Shown one piece after another: positions 1 through 4,149 of a stretch of DNA of 64,000 nt; position 1 is the first letter of the stretch, and the number at the start of each line of letters is the position of its first letter. Source of the DNA: Christiangramia crocea (lineage in GTDB: Bacteria > Bacteroidota > Bacteroidia > Flavobacteriales > Flavobacteriaceae); assembly GCF_022410465.1 (NCBI RefSeq), contig NZ_JAJSON010000025.1:186001-250000 (forward strand), written 5' to 3'. The notes under the pieces are model-generated. The model was given only the letters and a program-made list of their open reading frames with translations. It was not told where the DNA came from and made no database searches. Both the position numbers and the translations under genes were made by a program.

Positions 1-99
1 ATCCGGAATTCTTCAGCCCTGAATAAACGAATGATGAATATTGTAAAAGAAAGGCTTCAGGCCAATATTCAGCTTTTAGAACGCGACCTGGCGTACTAA
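1..99 (+). CDS. C-terminal end of an unidentified protein (partial)
   Basis: An open frame runs in from the left edge and stops with TAA at 97-99. It encodes only the last 32 residues, a charged and probably helical tail ending in ERDLAY. This is too little to name a family. The end overlaps the convergent DUF3307 gene by 24 bases, which is acceptable in such compact DNA. It could in principle be chance, but the frame is open from the first base and has normal codon use. Confidence 0.45.
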   Translation: MRNSSALNKRMMNIVKERLQANIQLLERDLAY

Positions 100-807
100 A
101 AAACCTATCAGGATAGTAATGGTAAAGCTCATAAGGGTTCCTATGAGCACGTACTCGGTTTGCTTTCTGGCACCAGTTTCAGATTTATCGCTGAAACGCA
201 GAATTGATTTTGCTGCGATCAAAAACCCTATTGCCGAAAAATTGAGGGTAAGTATAAAGGTTAGAACTAAAACCCTTTCAAAAATTCCAATATATCTGCC
301 GGCAGCATCCAGACTGTTTCGCCTAAGATCATCTTCTACTTCGTTTTGCCATCTCTGGGTTGCTTTCCCTATAAGGAAACCGGCAGGAAAAATTATAACC
401 AGATAACCTATGAGTATTGCCATTATGGTTTCCGAACTTAGCAGATCAGATAGATATGGGATTATACTCTGAAAATTAGATGTGATCCAGAGCCAGGCCA
501 GGACTATCGCAAAGAGATGCAGAATCTGGTCTGATAAAAATATTTTCAGACTGTCCCGGTGGAACTGTAGTTTCCATAGGTCAGTAAAAAAGTGCGTGAA
601 GCTTATAAAAACAGCCACATACCAGTACTCTATCCTCATCAGGAAAATAAGGGTAAGCACCCCGGCAATTATCGCATGCAGGTAAAGGAATTTAGATTTT
701 GCTTTATGTCTTCGCTTGTGCTGAACCCATCTGGTAGGCTGTATCACAAAATCAGTGATCACATGGGCAAGCAATAATTGTAAGAGAATGAGTATACTAT
801 TTTCCAT
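76..807 (-). CDS. DUF3307 family integral membrane protein
   Basis: This is a polytopic membrane protein of about 243 residues, recognised as DUF3307 from the N-terminal pattern AHVITDFVIQP and the spaced His/Asp pairs in its first four membrane helices. Roughly seven hydrophobic segments are visible. His and Asp sit four residues apart in HVITD, HFFTD and DQILH, which could form a metal site inside the membrane; that is inference. The function of the family is not established. I chose the ATG at 807 (MENSILILL); an in-frame ATG at 822 would add five residues and lengthen the overlap with satD from 11 to 26 bases. It is co-transcribed behind the SatD gene, and the pairing suggests a joint function. 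Confidence 0.8.
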   Translation of the reverse strand: MENSILILLQLLLAHVITDFVIQPTRWVQHKRRHKAKSKFLYLHAIIAGVLTLIFLMRIEYWYVAVFISFTHFFTDLWKLQFHRDSLKIFLSDQILHLFAIVLAWLWITSNFQSIIPYLSDLLSSETIMAILIGYLVIIFPAGFLIGKATQRWQNEVEDDLRRNSLDAAGRYIGIFERVLVLTFILTLNFSAIGFLIAAKSILRFSDKSETGARKQTEYVLIGTLMSFTITILIGFLVRQVAF

Positions 808-1468
808 TAGAGAAATGTTCATTTATTACGTTCCTATAACGCTGTAACAAAACGTCGATTGCATCCCACCCCGCCGCTTTTTTTCTCTGGTTGACGGCAG
901 ACTGACTAATCCCCAGTTCAGTAGCAATTTCAGTTTCCTTGAATCCTTTCAAAAGATAATAAATTACTTCGGCAGATGCAGTACTCCATTTATCAGATAT
1001 AGTATCAAAAAGTAAAAATGAGGTATCAAACTCTTCATTTATATTATCTGAAGGAGTCTTAAGCTTTAATTTGCGATTTTCTTTTTTGATTTCATCCAGG
1101 GTTCTCCCTGAAAACTGAAAAGCCTGACCATTGGATTCCAGAATTGAATCCCTTTGAAAGTCGTAGGTGCCAATACCAATTGCCAGTCTTAGATCGGCCA
1201 CCCGTTTAAAGGCCTTATTGCTTTCACTATCATTAAGGTGCAGCCTGTTAATCGCCGTCTTTATTCGCAATGCAAAAAGCAGCGCTTCTTCAGGAGAATA
1301 AACTATCCCCTGAAAACTATCTCCCCTGTAGATCTTGAACTCAGAGTTGGGTTTAGTGAGCCGTTCCAGCTCCCTGAATTCCTTATTTAGGGTAGTAATG
1401 GTTTTCTCCAGCAATTCCTTTGGATAACTGGAAGAAGACAATAGATCGGCTGAAATAACTGCTATCAT
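797..1468 (-). CDS. SatD family protein with C-terminal helix-turn-helix
   Basis: The protein has 223 residues and resembles the SatD family. It has two parts. Residues 1-130 have an alpha/beta pattern like a class III nucleotidyl cyclase core: Asp8 in strand one (VISADLLSS), Asp50 in RGDSF, then RLAIGIGTYD and GQAFQFSGR, with Gln118 and Arg122 where cyclases carry Asn and Arg. Residues 173-201 form a helix-turn-helix (TEIATELGISQSAVNQR). It is the first gene of an operon with the DUF3307 gene, which it overlaps. A TATATTTG box lies four bases before the ATG, and CTTATAAG palindromes lie just upstream, so autoregulation is plausible. The cyclase resemblance is my own reading; catalytic activity is not shown and the Asn to Gln change may mean a binding role only. 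Confidence 0.75.
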   Translation of the reverse strand: MIAVISADLLSSSSYPKELLEKTITTLNKEFRELERLTKPNSEFKIYRGDSFQGIVYSPEEALLFALRIKTAINRLHLNDSESNKAFKRVADLRLAIGIGTYDFQRDSILESNGQAFQFSGRTLDEIKKENRKLKLKTPSDNINEEFDTSFLLFDTISDKWSTASAEVIYYLLKGFKETEIATELGISQSAVNQRKKAAGWDAIDVLLQRYRNVINEHFSNGK

Positions 1469-1472
1469 ACTT

Positions 1473-1480
1473 CAAATATA
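1473..1480 (-). promoter_or_regulatory. Probable -7 promoter element for satD
   Basis: The minus strand reads TATATTTG, a perfect match to the Bacteroidota -7 consensus TAnnTTTG, ending four bases before the satD ATG. No TTG is found at the usual -33 distance; the CTTATAAG repeats occupy that place. Transcription would start at or next to the start codon. Confidence 0.4.
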
Positions 1481-1496
1481 CAAAAATAAGTTTAAA

Positions 1497-1620
1497 ACCT
1501 TATAAGTATACCTTATAAGTCTTAAGGCTTATTTAATATAAATATAAGCTTATAACCTTATTTAAAGTTTTCATATTAAATATTTCCTAAATCTTAGCTA
1601 AGCCGATAAAGCTTATTTAA
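1497..1620. repeat. CTTATAAG / GCTTATTTAA repeat cluster upstream of satD
   Basis: ACCTTATAAG occurs at 1497-1506 and again at 1510-1519, a spacing of 13 bases; each contains the perfect palindrome CTTATAAG. Related copies follow: AAGGCTTATTTAA at 1524-1536, AAGCTTATAACC at about 1546-1557, CCTTATTTAAA at about 1556-1566 and AAAGCTTATTTAA at 1608-1620. They fill the divergent gap between satD and the Gre-like gene and look like binding sites for a dimeric regulator, perhaps the SatD helix-turn-helix itself. The function is inferred. Confidence 0.5.
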
Positions 1621-1650: not shown

Positions 1651-2103
1651 ATGGTAGCTAATAAAGAAGAATTATTTTTCAAATGTCTGGATGTGGTGAA
1701 CAGGCAGATTGATAAATATCAAAATGAAATGGATCAGATAAAGGAATCCATGGAGAATAATGATGCTCATACAGATTATGACGAAGATGATAGTAAAGGC
1801 CAACTCCTTGGAGATTTTGAAAAATATGCCGAATATCTGGATAACTCCAGGAAAATGAAGGAGAAGTTAAGCCGAATAGATCAAAAGCATTACAGTGAGC
1901 AGATCGATTTTGGAAGCATTGTGGAAACTTCTGAAAATTATTATTTCATTTCAGTTGCCGTGGGCAAGATTGTCTTAGATGAAGGCAGTACTGTATTTGC
2001 CATTTCAACCGAAGCCCCTATCTATCAGGAAATGAAAGGTAAAAAAGCCGGAGACAGTTTCACCTTTAACGGCAAGGAACATAAGATCCTGGAAGTTCAC
2101 TAA
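1651..2103 (+). CDS. GreA/GreB-like transcription factor family protein
   Basis: A protein of 150 residues with the layout of the Gre family. The first 85 residues are helical and charged with an acidic tip (HTDYDEDDSKG), as in the coiled coil that enters the RNA polymerase secondary channel. Residues 86-150 resemble the FKBP-like C-terminal domain: IDFGSIVETSENYYFISVA, then ISTEAPIYQEMKGKKAGDSF and a final strand. Known Gre factors rescue backtracked polymerase. Whether this one does so, or acts like Rnk or DksA, cannot be told from sequence. It is divergent from satD and convergent with the pgpH-like gene, whose stop abuts its own. Confidence 0.7.
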   Translation: MVANKEELFFKCLDVVNRQIDKYQNEMDQIKESMENNDAHTDYDEDDSKGQLLGDFEKYAEYLDNSRKMKEKLSRIDQKHYSEQIDFGSIVETSENYYFISVAVGKIVLDEGSTVFAISTEAPIYQEMKGKKAGDSFTFNGKEHKILEVH

Positions 2104-4149
2104 TCACTCAGGGTATTCAATTCGTAAATGGTAAATGTTCTTGAGCTTGCGCTTAAGTATTTTTTTCACCATCTGAATTTCCTTGAAGGTAATATTCGAG
2201 TTTAGGAACTGACCCTCTTCCATTTGTTTATCAATGATCTTTTCTACAAAATTATCAATAAGTACAGCGGTTGGTTCCTTTAAACTCTTACTTGCCGCCT
2301 CAACACTGTCACACATCATCAAAATAGCGGTTTCCTTACTGAAAGGGATAGGCCCTGGGTACCTGAAGTCTTCGGAAGGTGCATTTTCATTGATCTCTTT
2401 TTCCTTCATATAGAAATAATACACGGTAGTAGTTCCATGATGGGTCCTTATAAAATCTATTACCCTGTCTGGGAGATTGTTCTTTTTAGCAATCTCTATT
2501 CCTTTAATAACATGCTCAATAATTATCTGGGCACTTTCGCGTGGAGACAGTTCATCGTGAGAATTGACTGAAGTGGTCTGGTTTTCGGTAAAATAAGTAG
2601 GGTTATGCATTTTCCCAATATCATGATAAAGGGCCCCTACCCTGGCAAGCATCGCATTTGCATTTATCTCATTTGCCGCTGCCTCGGCAAGATTAGCAAC
2701 ATTCAGGCTATGATGAAAGGTTCCGGGAGCCTTTTCTGCAAGCTCTTTCAATAATTTAGAATTGGTATCTGACAGCTCAAGAAGAGACATATCGCTTACC
2801 ATTCCAAAAATCTTCTCATAGACATAAATCAGCGGCTGAACAAAAAGAGTTGCCAGGCCTCCCAGAATAAAGGTCAGGAAGATCTCTGGTTTCATATCAT
2901 TTATATCACCTTCCTGAATCACAGTGAACGCAAAATAGGCTACTATATAGACAAGGGTAATCTGTCCAACCGAAATGAAAAGGTTTGCTCTTTTATATAG
3001 CTCACTCACTGTTAGTATCGTAACTATACCTGCAATGATCTGAAGGAACATATATTCATAACTGTTGGGCACAATGAAGCCCAGTAACAACACCGTAATA
3101 ACATGAGTGAACAAGCCTAACCGGGCATCAAAGAAAGCCTTTAACGTGAGCGGAAGTATACACAAAGGCACTACATATACATAGTCTATGTTGAAGTTAA
3201 CTACCAAAGTGGTAAGCATCACCATAAAAATGATATTGAAGAATATGAATGTGACCTTTACGTTATTCTCAAAAACATGGGAGCGATATTTTCTCATGAA
3301 GAGAAGCAACATCAGTAATGCCAGTGCCACCAGGGCACTATAACCTACAATTATCCAGTTATAATTAGACTGGCTCCAAACCTGGGACTCGTATTCGGCC
3401 TTCAGGGAACGCAGGATGTGGTATTTGTTCCCTTCAACCACTTCACCTTTAGCTATAATACGACTCCCCTGCTCGATGATCCCCCGTGTATAGGATATGT
3501 TATTTAGTTTACTCTCAAGTTCTTTCTGGGTAAGGTTATTATTGAAAGTGACATTTGGTTCAACCGAATTGAAAAAGACTTCCAGTAACTCAGTTTTAAA
3601 AGATGAGAAACCGGCATTAGAAATCTGGTCACTTAAAAAACTTCTGATCTCACCCTGTTTTAAAATTCTCCGGTAGGCAACTTCGGAAGCTTCGTTTCCT
3701 TTCAGTAAATAGACCAGCTGATCAGGTTCCAGTCTTTCACTCTCCTGTAGCAAGCCAAATTCATAAATTTTATCTACTGTCTCTTCAATAAAATCATCAA
3801 TGATTGTTTCGTATACATTCAATGTAGAATCAGCAAAAACATTCTGAACTTCCACCAAGGCATCTTCTTTTACTTTGTCCGGTTTTTCAGTATCAAAGTT
3901 ATAATAAGGGATATGAGAGCCTGTAATATCCTGTTTTTCAGCTGCAATCTCCTCATCGGTCTTCAGAATGGCAAAATCAAAGGGCGCATATAGATTTTCA
4001 TACTGCCATGGTTTTCCTTTAGGGATATCATATTTGAATTTGCCTCCTTTTGGAAGAAGGTAAACGATTAAAACTGAGGTAAGCACAAACAGGAAAACCT
4101 TGTAAAAAAGCGCCTGATTTTTGTATAGCTTATTAATGAAATCGCTCAT
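2104..4149 (-). CDS. pgpH: 7TM receptor-HD family protein, PgpH-type cyclic dinucleotide phosphodiesterase
   Basis: A membrane-bound HD-domain phosphodiesterase of 681 residues. One N-terminal helix (about 14-33) is followed by an external domain (about 40-260) of the 7TMR-HDED type, seven membrane helices (about 265-445), and a cytoplasmic HD domain (about 470-680). The metal-binding motif is clear: HHSLNVANLAEAAA (His479-His480) and HDIGK at 509-513, with a later THHGTT. In Listeria, PgpH degrades cyclic di-AMP, and this architecture is the same, so that activity is likely here. It is a single-gene unit between a convergent Gre-like gene and the divergent thiolase. Confidence is high for family, moderate for substrate. 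Confidence 0.88.
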   Translation of the reverse strand: MSDFINKLYKNQALFYKVFLFVLTSVLIVYLLPKGGKFKYDIPKGKPWQYENLYAPFDFAILKTDEEIAAEKQDITGSHIPYYNFDTEKPDKVKEDALVEVQNVFADSTLNVYETIIDDFIEETVDKIYEFGLLQESERLEPDQLVYLLKGNEASEVAYRRILKQGEIRSFLSDQISNAGFSSFKTELLEVFFNSVEPNVTFNNNLTQKELESKLNNISYTRGIIEQGSRIIAKGEVVEGNKYHILRSLKAEYESQVWSQSNYNWIIVGYSALVALALLMLLLFMRKYRSHVFENNVKVTFIFFNIIFMVMLTTLVVNFNIDYVYVVPLCILPLTLKAFFDARLGLFTHVITVLLLGFIVPNSYEYMFLQIIAGIVTILTVSELYKRANLFISVGQITLVYIVAYFAFTVIQEGDINDMKPEIFLTFILGGLATLFVQPLIYVYEKIFGMVSDMSLLELSDTNSKLLKELAEKAPGTFHHSLNVANLAEAAANEINANAMLARVGALYHDIGKMHNPTYFTENQTTSVNSHDELSPRESAQIIIEHVIKGIEIAKKNNLPDRVIDFIRTHHGTTTVYYFYMKEKEINENAPSEDFRYPGPIPFSKETAILMMCDSVEAASKSLKEPTAVLIDNFVEKIIDKQMEEGQFLNSNITFKEIQMVKKILKRKLKNIYHLRIEYPE

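Follow-up and report, generated by a model that had tools for sequence, protein, structure and literature searches.

The closest described relatives of the system discussed here are the class III nucleotidyl cyclases, the GGDEF diguanylate cyclases, archaeal GTP cyclohydrolase III, the cyclase-like DUF2652 proteins and the two-gene Panoptes system. In Panoptes, a palm-domain synthase of the mCpol type, OptS, is encoded in one operon with a transmembrane protein, OptE, and the available part of the source names two putative active-site aspartates in KpOptS, Asp6 and Asp57 (PMC12657218). DUF2652 is an uncharacterised bacterial family that was earlier assigned to the class III cyclases, an assignment made there for DUF2652 and not for SatD; in the excerpted text its members are described as single-domain but for one protein (PMC4886424). 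The system in question consists of the satD gene of Christiangramia crocea and an adjacent gene for a membrane protein of the DUF3307 family, and it lies near one end of a 64,000-nucleotide stretch of contig NZ_JAJSON010000025.1 (positions 186,001 to 250,000; hereafter the window). In the portions available of the papers that mention it, satD figures variously as a gene for acid tolerance, as a protein that binds DNA, as the target of a small RNA or as a hit in proteomics (PMC10326533, PMC11323703, PMC10210942, PMC12005413). No report of the SatD fold, of a SatD-DUF3307 pair or of the repeat array described below was recognised in open-access full text, a body of literature that leaves most subscription papers and bioRxiv preprints outside. 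We consider it probable, at roughly 0.6, that SatD is a nucleotide-controlled autoregulator with a divergent palm, which binds as dimers to an array of sites upstream of its own gene and has the DUF3307 protein as its obligate partner.

What kind of protein is SatD? The Pfam profile of the family, PF16264, matches the window protein at E 2.4e-6 with 27.8 bits, where the curated cut-off is 29 bits, and it is matched by 74 of the 81 members of alignment A2 at E<=0.01. The closest named relatives belong to Gramella/Christiangramia, Gillisia and Salegentibacter. An AlphaFold2 model of SatD built on an 81-sequence alignment is confident (pLDDT 94.1, pTM 0.92) and consists of a palm domain followed by a helix-turn-helix (HTH). 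When the model was compared with the PDB by Foldseek, 56 matches were obtained at E<=0.001; the 50 matches listed are, by their titles, class III cyclases, GGDEF-containing proteins or GTP cyclohydrolase III, including two DosP entries that we take to be GGDEF-containing. A second structural comparison with VIA-align, in which Z differences under 1 were taken as ties, could not separate the diguanylate cyclase DosC of E. coli (4zvg; Z 10.4, rmsd 3.0 over 128 residues), archaeal GTP cyclohydrolase III (2qv6; Z 10.4, rmsd 2.9 over 115 residues) and the class III cyclase Rv1625c (7yz9; Z 10.1, rmsd 3.2 over 141 residues). Type III-B CRISPR chains, among them Cmr2 (Cas10), followed at Z 9.5-10.0, which is a point of likeness with Panoptes. 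In a viral structure library a single protein, from a Pandoravirus and named as a kinase, reached E<=0.001, with some cyclase and GGDEF proteins in the rows that followed; this search was not used.

The profile-profile comparison leads to the same part of the palm superfamily. In hhalign, the SatD palm (157 sequences) was paired with 27 class III domains at 82% probability (E 1e-5), the better score of the two families compared, and with 26 GGDEF domains at 66% (E 5.6e-5), whereas six control pairings, made with reversed alignments and with the HTH part of SatD, gave 0.8% or less. For three class III loci and four GGDEF loci, out of 30 each, no single open reading was obtained, and these do not enter the profiles. 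At the level of sequence profiles, this result shows kinship of the SatD palm with both families. The original prediction, made from the sequence of the window by eye, had proposed a class III nucleotidyl cyclase fold joined to an HTH, and had suggested profile-profile comparison and structure prediction as checks. Both bear out a nucleotidyl-cyclase-type fold joined to an HTH, with a topology that does not differ from that of cyclase/GGDEF proteins. An assignment to class III in particular is not supported: the fold and two aspartates are there, while the three reference structures are tied and the Asn/Arg pair of class III is not conserved.

The prediction gave no strand for the gene, which lies on the minus strand; all residues on which it was built are present in the translation, namely Asp8 in VISADLLSS, Asp50 in RGDSF 42 residues further on, the strand RLAIGIGTYD, and Gln118 and Arg122 in GQAFQFSGR. 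It had also placed a DNA-binding segment at residues 173-201. This is close to the HTH helices of the model (163-173, 178-185 and 189-198, preceded by a helix at 141-159), and several Pfam HTH profiles match residues 166-200; by its profile matches the HTH resembles region 4 of sigma-70.

How far do the active-site residues support a functional palm? Conservation was scored over 157 distinct SatD sequences, in which D8, D50 and G114 are invariant, S12 is found in 155 and K128 in 139. In the profile alignments, D8 falls on the Asp that opens the DxD motif of GGDEF and on that of the class III motif FAD(I/V), and D50 on the third residue of GG(D/E)EF and on the Asp of the class III GD turn; an R-x-x-I strand is aligned with class III as well. 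Eighty of the 157 sequences are a subset of 579 confirmed relatives that were found with a pattern fixing (Y/N)RGD(S/E)FQ, and the conservation of residues 47-53 in those 80 is therefore partly built in. D50 is also invariant in the other 77 sequences, which came from whole-protein or Pfam searches. The variability of Asp8 and Asp50 among homologues that would have spoken against a cyclase-type site was thus not seen. The turn at residues 49-52 reads GDSF in 99 sequences and GDEF in 43, and K128 is aligned by hhalign with the Lys of the GGDEF C-terminal helix. In GGDEF enzymes this Lys binds phosphate.

By contrast, the proposal that Gln118 and Arg122 stand in for the class III Asn and Arg has to be given up as a feature of the family. 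Position 118 is Gln in 69 of the 157 sequences and Asn in none, position 122 is Arg in 73, and hhalign does not lay GQAFQFSGR on GDxVNxAxR, although, by element order, each of them opens the corresponding helix. GDEF-type members often have an Arg at the preceding residue (R121 in 28 of 157). Since the Asn/Arg pair is not conserved, SatD is not a canonical class III cyclase. Some established class III cyclases also lack the Asn, as do the mycobacterial DUF2652 members, according to the part of the source available (PMC4886424). SatD further differs from class III cyclases in being joined to an HTH and in having a DUF3307 partner, and from DUF2652, for which no HTH or DUF3307 link was seen in that same excerpt. 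It differs from GGDEF enzymes in its C-terminal HTH and in lacking the first Gly of the signature: position 48 is R, L, K or Q and never Gly, so that GG(D/E)EF is absent. GTP cyclohydrolase III is not known to have an HTH or a membrane partner. We therefore place SatD in a separate branch of the cyclase/GGDEF palm superfamily, and not among the class III cyclases or the GGDEF enzymes.

One could take the lack of a canonical Asn/Arg pair, together with the sigma-70-like HTH, to mean that the palm is a dead structural dimerisation domain and that SatD is an ordinary repressor. We regard this as improbable. Among 3000 sampled pairs, palm identity has a median of 34% and falls as low as 13%, and the invariance of both acids over such distances is unexpected for a dead site. 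The invariant acids argue instead for real metal-nucleotide chemistry, and for this reason a second-messenger role like that of Panoptes stays a live rival, to which we return below.

Downstream of satD lies the DUF3307 gene (PF11750 match at E 1.8e-23). Its mechanical open reading frame (ORF) overlaps satD, and Met6 at position 807 is the likelier start, since 144-150 of 156 aligned relatives lack residues 1-5. Is this arrangement a general one? Partner presence in the locus was scored for 81 Bacteroidota rows (61 loci and 20 picked ones, with L001 and L002 both representing the window's own gene), and the downstream same-strand placing was read from coordinates. A DUF3307 relative follows satD on the same strand in 78 of the 81, in one of them (L063) 289 bases away. 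Among 80 loci on named contigs, which include methanogenic archaea, Kangiella, an Omnitrophus and a planctomycete candidate, 79 have a DUF3307 relative with satD, 75 of them within 150 nt and four more recognised by eye from coordinates. Both genes are present in all 16 plasmid-collection or viral loci that were opened, 11 found by SatD and 5 by DUF3307 (10 of the 19 plasmid records with SatD and 5 of the 18 with DUF3307 were opened; L192-L195 are also in the DUF3307 model). The reverse test used 20 loci hand-picked from genomes with DUF3307 but no PF16264 match, and in 19 of these the DUF3307 gene adjoins a SatD relative. The misses among Bacteroidota are two shorter loci (L066 and L057), probably cut at a contig end, and L074, where the module sits in a 69-aa ORF (E 3e-14); elsewhere, L109 has only a trace of the partner (E 0.025) and L257 is without SatD. 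SatD and DUF3307 are a nearly obligate pair.

The part of the partner that is universal is its C-terminal module and not the part by which Pfam names the family. Short partners of about 105-150 aa that lack the Pfam-defined part keep this module, and none of the five tried matches PF11750. On two alphaproteobacterial plasmids (L227 and L229, at about 3000-4080), the partner is short, consists of the C-terminal module only and is not recognised as DUF3307 by Pfam. Within the module, G179 and E182 are found in 156 of 156 aligned sequences, R183, K205 and G228 in 155 each, and R209 in 154; of the 79 contig partners, all but L091, L121 and L142 are in the alignment (A3), which makes 76. The whole partner is modelled as an all-helical protein (pLDDT 93.3), and, to judge from the ends of its helices, the conserved charged residues E182, R183, K205, R209 and E223 could lie on one face of the membrane. 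Matches to the NavAb and TRP-channel folds were weak (E 0.76 and worse) and were not used.

The region upstream of satD usually carries a further feature, a series of evenly spaced DNA sites. In the window, three palindromic sites of the form ATAAG-N8-CTTAT lie between satD and its divergent neighbour, exactly 29 bp apart. No further site of this form occurs in the 64 kb, where 0.15 would be expected, and three sites were reached in none of 100 shuffles; the case for an array in the window rests on these three exact sites. Outside this array, the 3.9 Mb genome contains no exact copy of the tandem form; with one mismatch allowed there are two more places, as many as for a backward control pattern. 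Tandem Repeats Finder did not detect the 29-bp array of the window.

A blind scan of the 150 bases before satD, covering periods of 20-45 and compared with 60 dinucleotide shuffles, extends this spacing to the family. It covered 158 of 160 upstream regions, two being dropped as short or containing N. A period of 28 or 29 scores best in 137 of the 158, and 114 loci beat all 60 shuffles, 112 of them at 28 or 29. Among 200 control upstreams, sampled from 233 of other genes on the same contigs, the best period was 28 or 29 in 12; six beat their shuffles, none at 28 or 29. The period persists when the set is thinned to below 60, 50 and 40% identity (57 of 72, 33 of 41 and 14 of 21 loci, of which 47, 26 and 10 beat all shuffles). 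In a further 35 loci it is found in 29, of which 21 beat all 60 shuffles; the 29 include the near-twins L194/L195 and L226/L228. The sequence of the sites varies between lineages and the period is kept. In 45 upstreams of the Gramella/Salegentibacter type, 29 have two or more exact ATAAG-N8-CTTAT sites, and neighbouring exact sites are 29 bp apart in all 36 cases. Half-sites ATAAG at a distance of 29 are also seen in L105, from the planctomycete candidate, and in the archaeal loci L109 and L124; for the two archaeal loci the blind scan is not significant. The sites are often palindromic, and the median distance from their end to the start codon is 18 bases.

Which protein binds the array? Over 111 arrays, the similarity between arrays tracks the identity of the HTH (residues 162-200) beyond that of the palm, with a partial rho of 0.286; none of 500 permutations reached this value, the largest being 0.119, and residues 141-161 gave a partial rho of 0.024. 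This counts in favour of SatD itself as the binding protein. The mechanism that we favour, the nucleotide-controlled autoregulator, is most likely to run as follows. Asp8, Asp50 and Lys128 of the SatD palm would bind a metal-nucleotide, which the palm may also turn over. SatD would dimerise, and its dimers would sit side by side on the palindromic 28-29 bp array at the satD promoter. The array adjoins the putative promoter box TATATTTG, so that bound SatD would set, presumably by repression, the expression of satD and of the co-directional DUF3307 gene. The DUF3307 protein would be the obligate functional partner, coupled to SatD at the membrane: its C-terminal module could receive either SatD itself or the nucleotide of SatD, via the conserved charged residues. 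Of all this, computation shows the fold, the invariant residues, the pairing of the genes and the array; the binding of nucleotide and of DNA, the repression and the coupling to the membrane protein are inferred.

Several results weigh against this account. The whole-model TM-scores from Foldseek, in which the HTH is included, are modest (TMq 0.32-0.45, rmsd 2.8-7.4). The class III and GGDEF profiles score only 2.3% against each other in the same hhalign test, and the closeness of SatD to one or the other can therefore not be ranked. The DUF3307 model has no PDB match at E below 0.7, which makes the role given to the membrane protein a guess. As for the array, another period is best in 21 of the 158 loci, including L101, L104, L105 and L118 from archaea and other phyla, and four of 16 plasmid-type loci are without a best period of 28 or 29. 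The dyad is not universal: in 64 of 113 arrays it is reached by at most 2 of 200 column shuffles. The self-match test of the window is not significant, 26 of 60 shuffles being as good, probably because the sequence is very AT-rich. The array could be bound by another regulator; the control segment 201-220 has a partial rho of 0.108, close to the permutation maximum, and relatedness is thus only partly removed from the comparison with the HTH.

An iteron-like array next to the operon, found only once in the genome at zero mismatches, together with carriage on plasmids, might also suggest a partition-like tether, in which SatD would bind the array as a centromere-like site and DUF3307 would serve as the anchor in the membrane. 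This is very improbable. The system is mostly present in one copy per genome and not one per replicon, and the pair is carried by a small plasmid with Rop, which would not be expected to need partition. The plasmid is that of locus L192 (NC_019077.1), a 3770-bp E. coli plasmid in which a SatD relative and DUF3307 (1792-3481) are the main cargo. Beside the pair it has genes for Rop, MobA and a small hypothetical protein, and its satD upstream is 29-bp periodic. Records like it were matched in Klebsiella in the plasmid collection, and nothing close to the pEC34A-type pair was found among 5,426 complete E. coli genomes. The pair is further found on large plasmids typed as conjugative and on one viral contig. 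With two SatD proteins and the window DUF3307 as tblastn queries, nothing was found in 50,697 phage records; this absence holds only at that sensitivity, since the available part of one report lists a DUF3307-domain ORF (ORF187, 134 aa) in the jumbo Ralstonia phage RsoM2USA (PMC8504454).

SatD relatives were recovered from 74 of 149 genomes of relatives, a count that includes the genome of the window. In the phylum as a whole, PF16264 is matched in 79 of 395 Bacteroidota genomes (69 over the cut-off) and PF11750 in 94 of 390. Outside the Bacteroidota, SatD relatives were detected in archaea, Gamma- and Alphaproteobacteria, an Arthrobacter, an Omnitrophus, a planctomycete candidate and Fusobacterium. 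In the genus of the window SatD is nearly fixed, being present in 23 of 24 genomes, and the miss is a genome that is 67% complete.

This distribution bears on the idea of a toxin-antitoxin-like pair, in which DUF3307 would harm the membrane and SatD would silence it by repression or direct binding, with the nucleotide pool as the trigger. The tight gene overlap (the commonest gap is -4, a 4-base overlap) and the role of the pair as main cargo of a 3.77 kb plasmid fit such a module. So does the behaviour of satD in Streptococcus pyogenes, where, in the part of the study available, it is accessory (178 of 249 genomes) and seemingly essential in the strains and conditions tested (PMC11323703); this is expected on loss of an antitoxin, and would be explained by a silencer of a harmful partner. 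On the other hand, the S. pyogenes partner gene was not seen here, and SatD, in being nearly fixed in the genus of the window, is unlike most toxin-antitoxin modules. We therefore hold this reading to be rather unlikely.

Does the pair act in defence, or as a second-messenger system? SatD could be an active second-messenger synthase that works through DUF3307 as membrane effector, in the manner of Panoptes OptS/OptE or of Pycsar, and its HTH and array would then do no more than set the level of expression. This is possible, and well short of an even chance. The two invariant acids and the conserved Lys of SatD would suit a synthase, as would the conserved basic and acidic residues of the short membrane module, and a palm protein followed by a transmembrane protein in a two-gene operon is the arrangement that the excerpted Panoptes report describes (PMC12657218). 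One plasmid copy adjoins a Pycsar system: on a Sphingomonas plasmid (L237, NZ_CP048421.1, 2201-6651), the SatD relative and DUF3307 lie next to a Pycsar effector, an E2-associated protein and a cyclase gene. Against a synthase stand the absence of the class III Asn/Arg residues and the all-helical partner model, in which no OptE-like soluble nucleotide-binding domain and no 2TM-beta effector is seen. The HTH and the operator array have no counterpart in Panoptes. The mCpol profile PF18182 is not among the matches of the window protein up to E 10, a range in which the HMMER filters drop most matches above about 0.1; mCpol is also rare, in 1 of 198 Bacteroidota genomes compared with 79 of 395 for SatD. 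Membership of mCpol was set aside, given the lack of a PF18182 match and a family too rare for a profile.

Searches with PADLOC 2.0.0 also count against the synthase reading. None of 77 DUF3307 proteins matches at E<=0.001, SatD has only a weak match over its HTH (E 0.021), and 10 of 10 neighbouring genes, one each from 10 hand-picked loci outside Flavobacteriia, have no match at E<=1e-5. Nine of these ten match other Pfam families, of mixed kinds, among them ribosomal protein S6e, radical SAM, glycosyltransferase, thioesterase and GAF. A defence-island reading was set aside in view of these neighbours. The PADLOC negatives and the near-fixation of SatD in the genus of the window speak against a defence role. 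Some plasmid copies lie near Pycsar, DUF4365 or HEPN genes; as these are anecdotes, a defence role of the pair is taken as possible and is not claimed.

The box TATATTTG just before satD matches the Bacteroidota -7 promoter box, whose consensus is TAnnTTTG. More widely, TANNTTTG is found within 60 nt in 54 of 160 satD upstreams, where 10.3 are expected by single-base shuffling, and a scan for sigma-70-type promoters was not above shuffles. Divergent from satD is a gene for a 150-aa protein (1651-2103, plus strand) with a weak match to the GreA/GreB C-terminal domain (E 0.0031, below cut-off); its start faces the array, which may therefore control this gene too. Two genes from satD lies a 7TM-HD protein (2104-4149, minus strand; 7TM-7TMR_HD at E 1e-42, HD at E 2e-17), of a kind that includes c-di-AMP phosphodiesterases. 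The genome of the window has two class III cyclase matches (PF00211) and no GGDEF match. The coordinates of the system are collected in Table 1.

Table 1. Features of the satD-DUF3307 locus, in positions of the window.
Feature	Position	Strand	Description	Basis
satD gene	797..1468	minus	223 aa; cyclase/GGDEF-type palm domain, then HTH	translation, Pfam, AlphaFold2 model, Foldseek, VIA-align
Palm domain	1049..1468	minus	residues 1-140; in order strand 2-9, helix 17-35, strands 43-47 and 51-56, helix 59-74, strand 93-100, helix 115-130, strand 134-137	AlphaFold2 model, Foldseek, VIA-align
Asp8 codon	1445..1447	minus	first acidic residue; D in 157/157 relatives	
Asp50 codon	1319..1321	minus	in GDSF (GDEF in other members); D in 157/157	
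Lys128 codon	1085..1087	minus	K in 139/157; aligned with Lys of GGDEF C-terminal helix (LYxAK)	
HTH region	875..982	minus	residues 163-198	Pfam, AlphaFold2 model
DUF3307 membrane protein, partner gene	76..822	minus	mechanical ORF overlaps satD by 26 bp	ORF list, PF11750 match, alignment, model
Partner C-terminal module	79..330	minus	residues about 165-248; part kept by short partners	alignment
Putative promoter box TATATTTG	1473..1480	minus	fits Bacteroidota -7 box TAnnTTTG; 4 nt before satD start codon	
Palindromic site, unit 1	1486..1503		ATAAG-N8-CTTAT; nearest satD	
Palindromic site, unit 2	1515..1532		ATAAG-N8-CTTAT; 29 bp from unit 1	
Palindromic site, unit 3	1544..1561		ATAAG-N8-CTTAT; 29 bp from unit 2	

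What would such a system mean for the families concerned? SatD and DUF3307 are both widespread and poorly studied, and the combination of their features points to an uncharacterised signalling system. A bolder proposal, which we put forward tentatively and on the doubtful side, is that SatD-DUF3307 would be an undescribed prokaryote-wide system of bacteria and archaea. In it, a cyclase/GGDEF-type enzyme with its own DNA-binding domain would make or read a nucleotide, form an ordered multimer on a 28-29 bp operator array and control a membrane protein that is harmful when the signal is lost; the logic would be that of Panoptes, with transcription and second messenger in one protein. Between them, the palm fold, the two invariant acids, the near-obligate DUF3307 gene and the operator array offer a possible reason why satD is accessory and yet seemingly essential in S. 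pyogenes, as reported in the part of that study available (PMC11323703). A cyclase-type domain fused to an HTH would join signal and transcription control in one small protein. Taken together, these features make a single testable system out of two families that had not been characterised.

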